This document shows positions 15,495 through 51,872 of a stretch of 64,000 bases of DNA, one piece after another. This stretch comes from Oscillospiraceae bacterium (GTDB lineage Bacteria > Bacillota > Clostridia > Oscillospirales > Ruminococcaceae): assembly GCA_022768245.1 (NCBI GenBank), contig JALEMR010000021.1, forward strand, positions 1 through 64,000, written 5' to 3'. Within the stretch, counting starts at the first letter, position 1; every line of letters begins with the position of its first letter. The notes beneath the pieces are model-generated. The model did not search any database. It had not been told where the DNA came from and saw only the letters and a program-made list of their open reading frames with translations. The position numbers and the translations under genes were made by a program.

Positions 15495-16498
15495 TGAACG
15501 ATTACAACAGTTACAACAGAGGCGTTACATACGGCAGCTATGACAGAACGCTTTACCCTCTCCCCGCCGAGAAAAAGAGCATACGCAAGACCTTTTCCAA
15601 TACTGCGTGGGCGCTTATCGTCAGCGAGGTATTTACCTATATCTTTTATACTGCATTTATGATATTTCTGTCCGCCGCAGGCTTTCAGACCTATTACGAC
15701 GGGGACGGGAATCTTATCCAGAGCGCGCCCGTCATATTTCTGAGCTGCACATCGGTCACCTTCGGACTGATATGCACCTCTCTCATATTCGGCAGCGGAT
15801 TTCATTTCAAGGTCTCCGACCTTTTCGGAACGGAAAAGGTCACGGCGAAAAAGCTGATGCTTACGGCGCTTGTCTCGCTGGGGGCAGCGAACGCCGTCTA
15901 TGTGATAAATGTGTTTATTTCCATGGCGGTGTACTCCTTAGGCTTTGAGCTGGATTATGCCATAACCGACCCCGTGACAAAGATTGACCGGGCTGCGGAA
16001 ATTATCACCACGGTGGTGCTGGCACCCGTCTTTGAGGAGATATTCTACAGAGGAGTCATAATGCGGAGTCTCAGCAGGGTAAGCAAATACTTTGCCATAT
16101 TTGTTTCCTCTGCGGCATTCGGGCTGGCTCACGGAAATATCTATCAGTTTATTCTCGGCTTTACTGTGGGCATCGTCTTCGCATACGCGGATATGAAGAT
16201 GGATTCGATACTTCCGTCTGTTATAGCTCATGTGGCGGTGAATGCTCATTCGTATATCTACTATGCCTTTTCGGGCAAATACGAGGACTTCGCATACTTT
16301 ATCTGCGTGGGGATATTCATTATCATCGGAACGGCAGCTCTTCTGTATGTGCTGAAGCACTATGGGATAGATTTCCCAGAATATACCGAGCACCACAAAA
16401 AGCGCTGCATGCCCGTGCTGTTATGCTCGGTCCCCGCATGGCTCTTTTTTATCTATGCGGTGTACAGTATGTTCAGTTCATTCACGGCGGTAGATTAG
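15491..16498 (+). CDS. CPBP-family intramembrane metalloprotease (Rce1/CaaX-like)
   Basis: 335 residues from ATG 15491, overlapping the lexA stop (ATGATGA); an ATG at 15494 is also possible. Seven or eight membrane segments. Catalytic motifs are complete: EEIFYRG (Glu-Glu and Arg), FGLAHGN (His) and HVAVNAHSY (His and Asn). In bacteria these proteases act in bacteriocin immunity, peptide maturation or envelope signalling; no substrate is visible nearby. A short Tyr/Asn-rich cytoplasmic start (NDYNSYNRGVTYGSYDRTLY) precedes the first helix. Confidence 0.85.
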   Translation: MMNDYNSYNRGVTYGSYDRTLYPLPAEKKSIRKTFSNTAWALIVSEVFTYIFYTAFMIFLSAAGFQTYYDGDGNLIQSAPVIFLSCTSVTFGLICTSLIFGSGFHFKVSDLFGTEKVTAKKLMLTALVSLGAANAVYVINVFISMAVYSLGFELDYAITDPVTKIDRAAEIITTVVLAPVFEEIFYRGVIMRSLSRVSKYFAIFVSSAAFGLAHGNIYQFILGFTVGIVFAYADMKMDSILPSVIAHVAVNAHSYIYYAFSGKYEDFAYFICVGIFIIIGTAALLYVLKHYGIDFPEYTEHHKKRCMPVLLCSVPAWLFFIYAVYSMFSSFTAVD

Positions 16499-16573
16499 CG
16501 ATCAGCAATTAGCGATTAGCGATTAGCTAATTACTATAGCTATTGGCTAATTGCTAATAGCTATTAGCTAATG
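16499..16573. repeat. ATTAGC-type tandem and inverted repeat
   Basis: Directly after the CPBP gene stop, the heptamer ATTAGCG occurs in tandem and then mirrors into TAATAGCTATTAGCTAAT, forming an imperfect hairpin. It lies just upstream of the RBS of the DUF4364 gene. Confidence 0.6.
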
Positions 16574-34494: not shown

Positions 34495-35988
34495 ATGAAC
34501 TACAAAAGCACACGTGACAGCAGCGTGAAGATATCCGCTGCACAGGCTATCGTACAGGGAATTTCCGCAGACGGCGGTCTTTTTGTCCCCGAGGAGATAC
34601 CTCAGATAACTATGGACGAGATCGTCGCTCTGGGCGATATGTCCTACTCCGAGAGAGCGGCTTTCGTTTTCTCCAAGTACCTCACCGACTTCACCGAGGC
34701 AGAAATAAGATACTGCACCGATAACGCTTACAGCACCAAGAATTTTGCTACAGAGAACATCGCCGAGATATCTCACCTGTTCGACGGCGCTTATGTTCTC
34801 GAGCTCTGGCACGGCCCTACCTGCGCTTTCAAGGATATGGCGCTCCAGATACTGCCTTATCTGCTGACCACCTCCGTTAAGAAGATAAATCTCAACAAGA
34901 AGGTCATCATTCTCGTGGCTACATCGGGCGATACGGGCAAGGCTGCTCTTGAGGGCTTTGCTGATGTTCCCGATACCGAGATAATGGTATTTTATCCCCG
35001 CGACGGCGTAAGCGCTATGCAGAAGCGTCAGATGATAACTCAGGACGGCGCTAACGTTAACGTATGCTCTATCAAGGGCAACTTCGACGACTGCCAGAAC
35101 GGCGTTAAGAAGATATTCACCGACGAGGACGTCAAGAAGAAGCTCTCCGACAACGGCATGATGTTCTCCAGCGCTAACTCTATCAACTGGGGACGTCTTG
35201 CTCCGCAGATAATATACTATCTTTCCACCTACGCTCAGCTGGTAAAGGACGGCGAGATAAAGGCGGGCGACAAGATAAACGTTGTTGTTCCTACGGGCAA
35301 TTTCGGCAACATTCTTGCGGCTTACTATGCCAAGAACATGGGTATGCCCGTGAACAAGCTCATCTGCGCTTCCAACTCCAACAAGGTGCTCACCGACTTC
35401 ATCAACACGGGCATCTATGACCGCAACAGAGATTTTATCACCACAATTTCTCCTTCCATGGATATCCTTATTTCTTCCAATCTGGAGAGACTGCTCTACA
35501 TTCTCACCGACGGCAATGATGCTCAGATAAGGGAATGGTTTGGTGCACTGGCTTCAAGCGGCAGATATGAGGTCTCCGAAGATGTGAAGGCTAAGCTGCA
35601 GGCTGATTTTGTTGGCGGCTTCTGCACCGACGAGGAGACCAAGGCTACCATTAAGGAAATTTTCGACAAGTATTCCTACACTCTGGACACTCACTCCGCA
35701 GTTGCTGTGAAGGTATACGAGGATTACAAGGCTAAGACAGGCGACAATACAAGAACCGTTATCGCCTCCACTGCAAGCCCATACAAGTTCAGCGCAAGCG
35801 TACTTGAAGCTATTGACGGCAAGGCTGACCAGGCTGACGAGTATGAAATGGTTGAGCGTCTGCACGAGGTTTCGGGATATCCCATTCCGAAGTCGCTGGC
35901 AGAGCTCAAAAATAAGGCTGCAAGATTTACCGATTCCATTGATAAGTCGGAGCAGGAAGCGTACGTTCTTCAGAAGCTGGGACTGTAA
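34495..35988 (+). CDS. thrC: Threonine synthase
   Basis: 497 residues, PLP enzyme converting O-phosphohomoserine to threonine. The PLP-lysine is in GPTCAFKDMALQIL, and the phosphate-binding loop in ATSGDTGKAALEGF. VVPTGNFGNILAAYYAKNMG is also typical. The start MNYKSTRDSSVKISAAQAIV matches the family. RBS AAGGAATTG; a small hairpin AACCATG/CATGGTT lies upstream (34458-34473). The 3' end abuts the structured element directly at the stop codon. Confidence 0.95.
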   Translation: MNYKSTRDSSVKISAAQAIVQGISADGGLFVPEEIPQITMDEIVALGDMSYSERAAFVFSKYLTDFTEAEIRYCTDNAYSTKNFATENIAEISHLFDGAYVLELWHGPTCAFKDMALQILPYLLTTSVKKINLNKKVIILVATSGDTGKAALEGFADVPDTEIMVFYPRDGVSAMQKRQMITQDGANVNVCSIKGNFDDCQNGVKKIFTDEDVKKKLSDNGMMFSSANSINWGRLAPQIIYYLSTYAQLVKDGEIKAGDKINVVVPTGNFGNILAAYYAKNMGMPVNKLICASNSNKVLTDFINTGIYDRNRDFITTISPSMDILISSNLERLLYILTDGNDAQIREWFGALASSGRYEVSEDVKAKLQADFVGGFCTDEETKATIKEIFDKYSYTLDTHSAVAVKVYEDYKAKTGDNTRTVIASTASPYKFSASVLEAIDGKADQADEYEMVERLHEVSGYPIPKSLAELKNKAARFTDSIDKSEQEAYVLQKLGL

Positions 35989-36482
35989 GCCGGGAACGCC
36001 CCGGCAGGCGATTGCCGCGCTGTGAGTTTTCAGCTTAGGGGACATCAAGCCGCGGAAGTTAGCAAATACAAAAGGTAAGGATGAGGTTGAGAGTATCCGC
36101 CGCTAAGAAGTAAGCCAGCCATAAAAAGTTCGCCGGCCTTTCAAGGCCGCAGGTTTCCAAAGGGCAGCGCCCTTTGGTCGCCGCTCGCAAGCGGCGAAAC
36201 ACCCCCACCGGCACGTAACACAGTGATGCTCCCCACCAAAGCCGAAGCATGAACGACAAAAGGGAAACAACGCAGTGATAACCGAAAGCCGAACAGCCGA
36301 ACAGCCGAACAGCTGATAACGCCGCCCGTTAAAAAACACGGAAGGCAAAAACGAACAGAAAATAAAAGCTAACAGTAAGCTATATCCACGGGCGGCGTGC
36401 ATTTGACAGCGAAGCGTCTCAAATGCGTGAAGTCGGAGACTTCACAGAGGGCCGAACTGCAAATCGTATGTAACCGTAAATC
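35989..36482. ncRNA. Large structured intergenic element, copy R1 (candidate ncRNA or structured mobile element)
   Basis: Homologous to R2 (51430-51872). It starts directly after the thrC stop with GCCGGG/CCCGGC. Stems seen: 36134-36149 (CGGCCTT/AAGGCCG), 36157-36177 (CCAAAGGGC/GCCCTTTGG), 36178-36197 (TCGCCGCT/AGCGGCGA), a long-range stem 36319-36329 with 36388-36398 (ACGCCGCCCGT/ACGGGCGGCGT), 36399-36406 with 36419-36426 (GCATTTGA/TCAAATGC), and 36427-36445 (GTGAAGTC/GACTTCAC). Conserved unpaired blocks include CAAGCCGCGGAAGT and CCCCCACCGGCACGTAACAC. A triple GCCGAACA repeat (about 36288-36311) is specific to this copy. The transcribed strand is uncertain; thrC would transcribe the plus strand. 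Confidence 0.7.
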
Positions 36483-49176: not shown

Positions 49177-51429
49177 ATGAACAATTTTGAACAGTGGAAC
49201 GGCTTTAAAGGCGTCAGATGGCGCGATGAAGTGGATACCAGAGATTTTATCCAGAACAACTATACTCCCTACGAGGGAAACGAGTCCTTCCTCGAAGGAC
49301 CTACCGAGGCTACCAACAAGCTCTGGGGCAGACTTAAGGAGCTCCAGAAGGAGGAACGCGCAAAGGGCGGCGTTCTCGATATGGATACTCATATCGTGTC
49401 GGGGCTGACTTCCCACAAGCCCGGCTATATCGACGAGAACATGAAGGACCTCGAAAGAGTAGTCGGTCTCCAGACGGACAAGCCCTTAAAGCGTGCATTC
49501 ATGCCCTTCGGCGGGATCAAAATGGCGGAGGAGGCTTGCCGCAACTACGGCTACGAGCCCGACCCCGAGCTCCACAGGATATTCACCGAATTTCACAAGA
49601 CCCATAATCAGGCGGTCTATGACGCATATACTCCCGAGATGAGGGCTGCAAGAAAGAACAAGATAATCACAGGTCTCCCCGATACATACGGAAGAGGACG
49701 TATCGTCGGCGATTACCGCCGCGTGGCGCTCTACGGGATCGACTACCTCGTTGCCAAGAAGACCGAGGATCTCAACTTCTGCGGAAACGGCAAGATGAGA
49801 GATGATATCATCCGCCGCCGCGAGGAGATAGCTGACCAGATCAAGGCTCTTAAGGCAATGAAGGTAATGGCAGAGTCCTACGGCTACGACATCTCACAGC
49901 CCGCAAAGGACGCAAGAGAGGCATGCCAGTGGCTCTACTTCGGCTATCTTGCGGCTATCAAGACCCAGAACGGCGCAGCTATGTCTGTGGGAAGAATTTC
50001 TACCTTCCTCGATATCTATATCCAGAGAGACCTTGACAACGGCACTCTCACCGAAAAGGAAGCTCAGGAGCTTATCGACCACATGGTCATGAAGTTCAGA
50101 ATGGTCAAGTTCGCGAGAATTCCCTCCTACAACGAGCTTTTCTCGGGCGACCCCGTATGGGCTACCCTCTCCGTTGCGGGACTGGGCATAGACGGCCGCT
50201 CCATGGTCACCAAGAATGACTTCCGCTTCCTCCACACTCTCGAAAACATGGGACCCTCTCCCGAGCCCAATCTGACCGTGCTCTACTCGGAAAGACTTCC
50301 CGAGGCGTTCAAGAAATACGCTGCGATGATATCCGTCACCACAAGCTCTATCCAGTACGAGAACGACGACGTTATGCGCGTTGAATGGGGCGACGACTAT
50401 GCTATCTGCTGCTGCGTTTCCGCAACTCAGACGGGCAAGGAGATGCAGTTCTTCGGCGCAAGAGCAAACCTTGCAAAGTGCCTGCTCTATGCGATAAACG
50501 GCGGCGTGGACGAAAAGACCCGCGCACAGGTGGGACCCAAGCTCGTGCCTATCAGGTCGGAATACCTCGATTATGTTGAGGTAATGCAGAAATATGACGA
50601 GATGATGAGCTGGCTGGCAAGCATCTACGTTCACACACTGAACCTTATCCACTACATGCACGACAAATACTACTATGAAGCTGCCGAAATGGCGCTCATC
50701 GATTCCAACGTAAGACGCACCTTTGCAACGGGAATTGCAGGCTTCTCCCATGTGGTGGATTCCCTTTCCGCTATCAAGTACGCAAAGGTAAGGACTGTCC
50801 GCGACGATTCGGGACTCTGCATCGACTACGAGGTGGAGGGCGACTTCCCCCGCTACGGCAACGACGACGACCGTGCGGACGACATCGCAGTATGGCTCCT
50901 TAAGACATTCCTCCACAAGATAAAGCAGTGCCATACATATCGCGATTCCGAGCCTACAACGTCCATTCTTACCATCACATCGAACGTCGTTTACGGCAAG
51001 GCTACGGGCTCTCTTCCCGACGGCAGACGTGCGGGTGAGCCTCTGTCTCCCGGTGCGAACCCCTCCTACGGCGCGGAGAAGAACGGACTGCTTGCTTCCC
51101 TTAACTCTGTTGCGAAGCTCCCCTACGAGTGGGCACTGGACGGTATTTCCAACACGCAGACCATCTCCCCCGACGCACTGGGTCACTCCGACGAAGAGCG
51201 TGCGGAGAATCTGGTGAACGTTCTGGACGGATATTTTGAGAAGGGCGCGCATCATCTGAACGTGAACGTATTCGGCACAGAGAAGCTCATTGACGCAATG
51301 GAGCACCCCGAGAAGGAAGAGTATGCGAACTTCACCATAAGAGTATCGGGATATGCGGTAAAGTTCATCGACCTGACAAGAGAGCAGCAGCTGGACGTTA
51401 TCGCACGTACCTGCCATAAGAGTATGTGA
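49177..51429 (+). CDS. pflB: Pyruvate formate-lyase
   Basis: 750 residues. It splits pyruvate with CoA into formate and acetyl-CoA by a glycyl radical. Active-site cysteines in [20 protein letters not shown] near 410; glycyl-radical motif [12 protein letters not shown] near 726. The N-terminus ([20 protein letters not shown]) is normal for the family. RBS CAGGAGG. The activase gene pflA is 586 bases downstream, separated by the structured element R2 and a terminator. Confidence 0.97.
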
Positions 51430-51872
51430 GCCGGGGACGCCCCGGCGGGCGATTGCCGCGTTGTTAGTGTTCAGCTTAGGTTACATTAAGCCGCGGAAGT
51501 AAGAAACGAGCGAAGGAAGGTGCGAGGCTGAGAGTAACAGCAGCTGAGCAGTAAGCCCGAATTAAAAAGTTTCGCCGGCCTTTTCCAAAGGCCGCGAGTT
51601 TCCAAAGGGCGGAGTCCTTTGGTCGCTGTCCGCAGACAGCGAAATCCCCCACCGGCACGTAACACAGCGATGCTCTGAATCTAAGCCGAAGCGCCGAACA
51701 GCAATAAAGCGCCGCCCGTGTAAAAACACGAAAGGCAGCAAACGAACAGCAAATATTCACGATAAGTAAGATAAATCCGGGCGGCGCAGCATTTGACAGC
51801 GGAGCGTCTCAAATGCGCGGAGCGGAGCTCCGCCGAAAACGAACGATTACTCTCATGTGACCGCAAAGCCCG
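51430..51872. ncRNA. Large structured intergenic element, copy R2 (candidate ncRNA or structured mobile element)
   Basis: Homologue of R1 (35989-36482), in the same orientation and again beginning directly after a stop codon (pflB TGA). Stems: GCCGGGG/CCCCGGC at the start; GGCCTTT/AAAGGCC; CCAAAGGGC/GTCCTTTGG; 51623-51630 with 51635-51642 (TCGCTGTC/GACAGCGA); 51709-51718 with 51778-51787 (GCGCCGCCCG/CGGGCGGCGC); GCATTTGA/TCAAATGC; 51817-51833 (GCGGAGC-GGA-GCTCCGC). Compared with R1, several pairs change on both sides (C-G to T-A, A-T to G-C), so pairing is conserved while sequence is not. Confidence 0.7.

Follow-up and report, generated by a model that had tools for sequence, protein, structure and literature searches.

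Mosaic hairpin repeats in Oscillospirales and related Clostridia may be kept complementary at the level of DNA

The stretch of DNA analysed here (the window; 64,000 nucleotides of contig JALEMR010000021.1 from an Oscillospiraceae bacterium) contains two elements, R1 and R2, that lie behind the genes for threonine synthase and pyruvate formate-lyase, respectively, and whose parts are listed in Table 1. The first base of R1 directly follows the TAA codon of the threonine synthase gene (35986-35988), and the first base of R2 directly follows the TGA codon of the pyruvate formate-lyase gene (51427-51429), just as the original prediction had stated for thrC and pflB. That prediction had also described the two elements as covarying look-alikes. 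In particular, R1 and R2 can be aligned end to end over their full length, and each compensated change that had been quoted is borne out by the two sequences: the H3 arms read TCGCCGCT..AGCGGCGA in R1 and TCGCTGTC..GACAGCGA in R2, the last hairpin changes from GTGAAGTC..GACTTCAC to GCGGAGC..GCTCCGC, and an A-T pair of the long-range stem in R1 is replaced by G-C in R2. The resemblance is real. When compared to shuffled sequences, the fold of R2 as DNA had a z score of -3.5 and the fold of R1 as RNA a z score of -2.8; no intrinsic terminator was found in R1.

Table 1. Features of the two composite elements (positions in the window)
Feature	Position	Strand	Remarks
R1, entire composite element	35989-36482	+	flanked by the threonine synthase gene and a metallophosphoesterase gene
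R1 module A	35989-36063	+	H0, then ATTGCCGCG..TTCAGCTTAGG..CCGCGGAAGT
R1 hairpin H0 GCCGGGAACGCCCCGGC	35989-36005	+	adjoins the TAA stop codon
R1 segment S (GGATGAGGTTGAGAGTATCC..)	36079-36120	+	customary lead-in to the core
R1 three-hairpin core	36121-36207	+	covariance model score 92 bits
R1 hairpin H1	36134-36149	+	pairing from the core alignment
R1 hairpin H2 CCAAAGGGCAGCGCCCTTTGG	36157-36177	+	pairing from the core alignment
R1 hairpin H3 TCGCCGCTCGCAAGCGGCGA	36178-36197	+	pairing from the core alignment
R1 module D long-range stem	36319-36398	+	arms ACGCCGCCCGT (36319-36329) and ACGGGCGGCGT (36388-36398); loop of 58 nt
R1 penultimate hairpin GCATTTGA..CAAATGC	36399-36426	+	
R1 last hairpin GTGAAGTC..GACTTCAC	36427-36445	+	
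R2, entire composite element	51430-51872	+	flanked by the pyruvate formate-lyase gene and a radical-SAM activating enzyme gene
R2 hairpin H0 GCCGGGGACGCCCCGGC	51430-51446	+	adjoins the TGA stop codon
R2 segment S start GGTGCGAGGCTGAGAGTAAC	51519-51538	+	
R2 three-hairpin core	51563-51652	+	covariance model score 100 bits
R2 core hairpins	H1 51576-51594, H2 51602-51622, H3 51623-51642	+	
R2 module D long-range stem	51709-51787	+	arms 51709-51718 and 51778-51787
R2 last two hairpins	51789-51816 and 51817-51833	+	

Reading the copies locus by locus revealed that they are ordered chains of short hairpin modules, about 450-500 bp long in this genus, in which a 5' module is followed by segment S (GGTGCGAGGCTGAGAGTAAC), the hairpins H1-H2-H3, either a spacer (CACCGGCACGTAACACAG) or another module A, module D (a stem that encloses a loop of about 58 nt), then two hairpins and a tail. 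The 5' module is either module A, which consists of H0 and ATTGCCGCG..CAGCTTAGG..CCGCGGAAGT, or a heptamer array (AATTAGC, AGTACTT and AGTGAAT). Module A occurs at the front of a copy, in its middle or alone; it stands in place of H3 and the spacer at three loci (L023, L024 and L027), is present twice at L006, and is found by itself behind a gene at L338 and L339. Internal deletions were found in L029, L341 and L342, the last of which fuses two GGGCGGCG stretches. (A heptamer array of the same type as the alternative 5' module, TTAGCGATCAGCAATTAGCGATTAGC...GCTAATAGCTATTAGCTAAT, is also present at positions 16493-16571 of the window, where it overlaps the preceding gene at its stop codon and makes up a long imperfect palindrome.) Cores from other genomes show two further arrangements. 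Extra hairpins are nested in H1 or placed at the H3 loop at seven loci (L049, L093, L099, L109, L124, L139 and L161), an example being GGTAAGCAAAGCTTACC at the CGCA loop in MAG RGIG8511, and pairs of inverted cores lie 350-450 bp apart at six others (L087, L092, L126, L127, L131 and L155), such that in some lineages core hairpins are present at both ends of the element.

The pairing of the core was assessed in 71 copies that were aligned by sequence alone with MAFFT (alignment A2). In this alignment 99.1% of pair cells were paired, compared to 85.9% in shuffles and at most 53% in slid versions, and 239 changes were two-sided, a count that shuffling lowered to 68 ± 7 and sliding to 31 or fewer. 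When changes were placed on a tree by parsimony, 96% of those at variable pairs fell on the branch on which the partner changed, compared to 12% for other column pairs. Pair 74-85, for example, is CG in 23 cores, GC in 23, UA in 20 and AU in 5, and occurs in no other combination. Between the stems, which vary, the linkers GGTCGC and GCGAAA hardly change, and neither does the CGCA loop of H3. The alignment, the shuffles and the tree count thus uphold the conserved, compensated pairing that had been proposed from the two copies in the window. (A long-range pairing of GTTTCG with CGAAAC round the core was considered and rejected, because the variants GTTTTGG, GTTTCCG and GTTTTAC retain CGAAA.)

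A search of this genome with R1 returned 54 matching pieces at about 30 places, and full cores, as identified by the pattern of the central hairpin, number about 26 here and about 9 in a sister species (G002) whose proteins are 91-92% identical. The original prediction was right about the two copies that it saw, and it missed the other copies in the genome, the movability of the modules and the family-wide distribution. The proposed search of related genomes with a covariance model found many homologues with conserved pairing: of 291 genomes of the class, 14 have the core, mostly in several to many copies, and these counts are lower bounds since no more than 14 candidates per genome were scored. 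One genome (G337) has at least 68 strong core matches. The three-hairpin core is found across families, and among the matches to the core pattern listed for GTDB genomes almost all are from Oscillospiraceae, Ruminococcus and Clostridia MAGs. One IMG/VR contig bears the pattern, and BLAST returned no match in phage and plasmid collections. Pattern matches in Solidesulfovibrio and alphaproteobacteria were left out because H2 alone matches and H1 and H3 are absent. (Solidesulfovibrio magneticus has a separate dispersed repeat, GTTATGGGTTTCCAAAGGGCTCAGCCCTTTGGTCGCCGAAGGCTTC, seen at L113, L140, L147, L153 and L165, that has H2 and its flanking letters, but neither H1 nor H3, in common with the family.) The original prediction could match the elements to no known family; likewise, Rfam 15 at its gathering threshold gave no match at R1, at R2 or at 20 copies from this genome, and a permissive search of Rfam gave chance-level matches only. 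A literature search, with most subscription journals outside its scope, found no published description of the repeat family. Resemblances to a group II intron (the GTGCGAGG start) and to a TPP-like CTGAGA motif were rejected, being without domain or Rfam support. The family, modular and multi-copy, ranges clade-wide through Oscillospirales and related Clostridia, and these mosaic hairpin repeats are real, strongly structured and apparently undescribed.

In this genome and G002, 33 copies could be classified; every one follows a gene and has its orientation (p = 2e-10), with a start mostly 0-10 bp past the stop codon, which agrees with the claim that the elements run in the direction of the gene whose end they occupy. 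The 5' end of module A falls exactly at the stop codon at several independent loci (L001, L005, L006, L031, L339 and L341), and heptamer-array 5' modules start at stop codons too. At L050 and at L009, where the gene is presumably ileS-like, the reading frame seems to enter module A and to take its final codons from it. Placement is less strict in other lineages. The orientation in G337 is 42 sense to 22 antisense (p = 0.017), and it is mixed in named MAGs of other lineages. Empty sites, which the original prediction had named as a sign of mobility, were found for both window loci: a short spacer is present at thrC in the relative G003, and between pflB and pflA in both G003 and a second relative, G001. 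At least five element sites are common to this genome and G002 (L006/L031, L021/L040, L020/L048, L001/L052 and L005/L230), which argues that many positions predate the split of the two species and are stable at that distance. Loss is indicated by L045, which is full in G002 whereas the orthologous L341 in this genome is internally deleted. (Note that the assembly holds two versions of what appears to be one locus, whose genes we take to be prs and pth, one with a full element on contig C53 (L003) and one with a truncated element on contig C50 (L029), which suggests that the MAG contains two strains or a related contaminant.)

Sense placement of this kind speaks for a regulatory RNA family of the 3' untranslated region, whose hairpins would be selected as RNA, for instance because they protect the ends of the mRNA, free ribosomes at the stop codon or keep operon partners apart. 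REPs near stop codons in E. coli affect mRNA stability and translation, and the fixed order of modules, together with constant linkers and a constant CGCA loop between variable stems, also fits an RNA. We nevertheless think this explanation unlikely. Selected RNA tolerates G-U pairs, and at covarying pairs of the element G-U accounts for 4 of 898 cells (0.4%), compared to 106 of 608 (17.4%) in SRP RNA of the same order, a comparator that is a different molecule of a different age (p = 5e-39). The ratio of G-U to other mismatches is 10:7 in the element and 106:30 in SRP RNA, a difference that is not significant (p = 0.13). G337 alone has 7 G-U and 5 other mismatches against 1569 Watson-Crick cells. 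Moreover, the alleles of H1, H2 and H3 in G337 show no linkage disequilibrium (p 0.50-0.81, V 0.05-0.16) at distances of 20-45 bp, yet over 99% of cells are matched between the two arms of a hairpin (alignment A3, used here, was fitted to the model and is biased toward pairing; direct sequences agree). Arms thus covary almost perfectly and neighbouring hairpins assort independently, which argues that copies often cross over with or convert one another at the 20-45 bp scale; mismatched hairpins were not seen despite this reassortment. The stem of module D, with its long loop, behaves differently from the local hairpins, in that one-arm changes are present in L013, L019, L023, L040 and L045 and one clear compensated change in L018. 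Although these numbers are small, they suggest that stems with longer loops are held less strictly. The scarcity of G-U, the independence of the hairpins and the one-arm changes in module D together point away from selection on RNA. A 3'-untranslated-region RNA is also at odds with the common truncated and internally deleted copies, the mixed or merely biased orientation elsewhere, the orthologous genes in G001 and G003 that do without the element, and the lack of an Rfam match. The earlier suggestion of a large regulatory or catalytic RNA fares no better, given that copies are modular, truncated and re-ordered, G-U is nearly absent and hairpins are independent.

Alternatively, a dedicated recombinase might read the folded hairpins of a structured single-stranded DNA mobile element and insert it precisely at stop codons, an explanation that we hold about as doubtful as the RNA one. 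Since selection on a DNA fold should give covariation that is Watson-Crick only, the pairing seen here is as expected; so are the exact 5' ends of module A at independent stop codons, the empty sites in relatives, and a distribution that is patchy and high in copy number, and the hairpins nested in H1 and H3 in other genomes suggest the insertion of palindromes. It is conceivable, if improbable, that gut Clostridia have in these repeats a structured DNA element of a new class, spread by an enzyme that reads folded single-stranded hairpins and inserts copies exactly behind stop codons, the single hairpins being exchangeable. Y1_Tnp is the known enzyme for folded single-stranded DNA elements. 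However, Y1_Tnp had no match in six core-carrying genomes, namely G048 and five with at least 11 core matches each (G337, G059, G199, G263 and G213), and the single Y1 gene of the present genome has no element copies in the flank examined. No other enzyme was linked to the family, and the sites common to the sister species argue that mobility is not recent. The original idea of a structured mobile element targeting gene ends therefore came close, in that gene ends and empty sites were both observed, and fell short in that no mobilising enzyme was found. An IS200/IS605 element or a HEARO/omega-RNA was rejected because there was no Rfam match and Y1 was unlinked, and an integron attC site because the ends of the core (GTTT..CG and CG..AAAC) have the reverse polarity to RYYYAAC..GTTRRRY.

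Movement as REP/BIME elements by RAYT (TnpA-REP) tyrosine transposases is already contradicted and very improbable, as the repeats resemble REPs in being intergenic, palindromic, multi-copy, mosaic and near stop codons, but the six other core-carrying genomes are without a Y1_Tnp match, no GTAG or CGTC tag was found in the conserved linkers or bordering the hairpins of alignment A2, and the unit is three different hairpins in fixed order and not one palindrome in alternating orientation.

The family does have likenesses to described intergenic repeats. REP, BIME and REPIN sequences, which are GTAG- or CGTC-tagged, are likewise short palindromes with many intergenic copies and mosaics, and CGTC REPs, like the present family, have no dedicated transposase (PMC3733652). 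The present repeats differ in that freely varying stems alternate with fixed linkers in three distinct hairpins, in that the GTAG tag, and Y1/RAYT in core-carrying genomes outside this genus, are missing, and in that copies in this genus are far longer. MITEs and composite intergenic repeats such as ERIC and RUP are also non-coding, dispersed, structured, gene-adjacent and a few hundred bp long, and some genomes have the inverted core pairs described above. Terminal inverted repeats and target duplications were not found at R1 and R2 (G001 and G003 are too distant for a duplication to be read). The present repeats differ in that modules are swapped and stem alleles are independent within a genome. 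STRRs of the cyanobacterial type are short tandem heptamer repeats, to which the heptamer array at stop codons may be compared; here the array is just one module of a composite.

On balance, we favour the explanation that R1 and R2 are copies of dispersed, mosaic, non-coding repeats whose hairpins are kept complementary at the level of DNA. A non-autonomous element would have dispersed by a route other than a Y1 transposase, and its copies would later have been shuffled by recombination and by short-homology deletion between them. Complementarity may then be maintained by correction of one arm from the other during replication, through template switching in stem-loop DNA, and/or by the loss of hairpins whose mismatches make them fail when folded as DNA, instead of mainly by selection on an RNA fold. 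Template switching is taken here from the literature and not directly seen in these copies; such correction of quasi-palindromes predicts that several bases change in both arms at a single step, that stems are perfect and pass through no G-U intermediates, and that stems with long loops, such as that of module D, are affected less (PMC8794818). It is a mutation process and not an element family, and it leaves dispersal, module order and placement at stop codons unexplained. The mRNA of the upstream gene would carry the element in its 3' untranslated region, where it might, as a side effect, alter mRNA ends or the termination of translation. Several points count against this explanation: undirected spread does not account for the strict sense orientation in this genus, the sites common to this genome and G002 look stable, and no mobilising enzyme, target duplication or recent insertion between strains was seen. 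The strict sense orientation also makes a role in the 3' untranslated region possible in this genus.

We thus regard the family as a variant of the intergenic palindromic repeats of bacteria that is best understood at the level of DNA. Covariation is standard evidence for functional RNA structure. In this family, near-perfect covariation at several pairs is accompanied by almost no G-U and by hairpins that are reshuffled within one genome. The family therefore lends itself to testing DNA-level processes that imitate selection on RNA, and it calls for caution where RNAs are sought in metagenomes by covariation. In common gut bacteria it also accounts for a large, apparently unnamed share of the intergenic DNA, where it lies at the ends of housekeeping genes.
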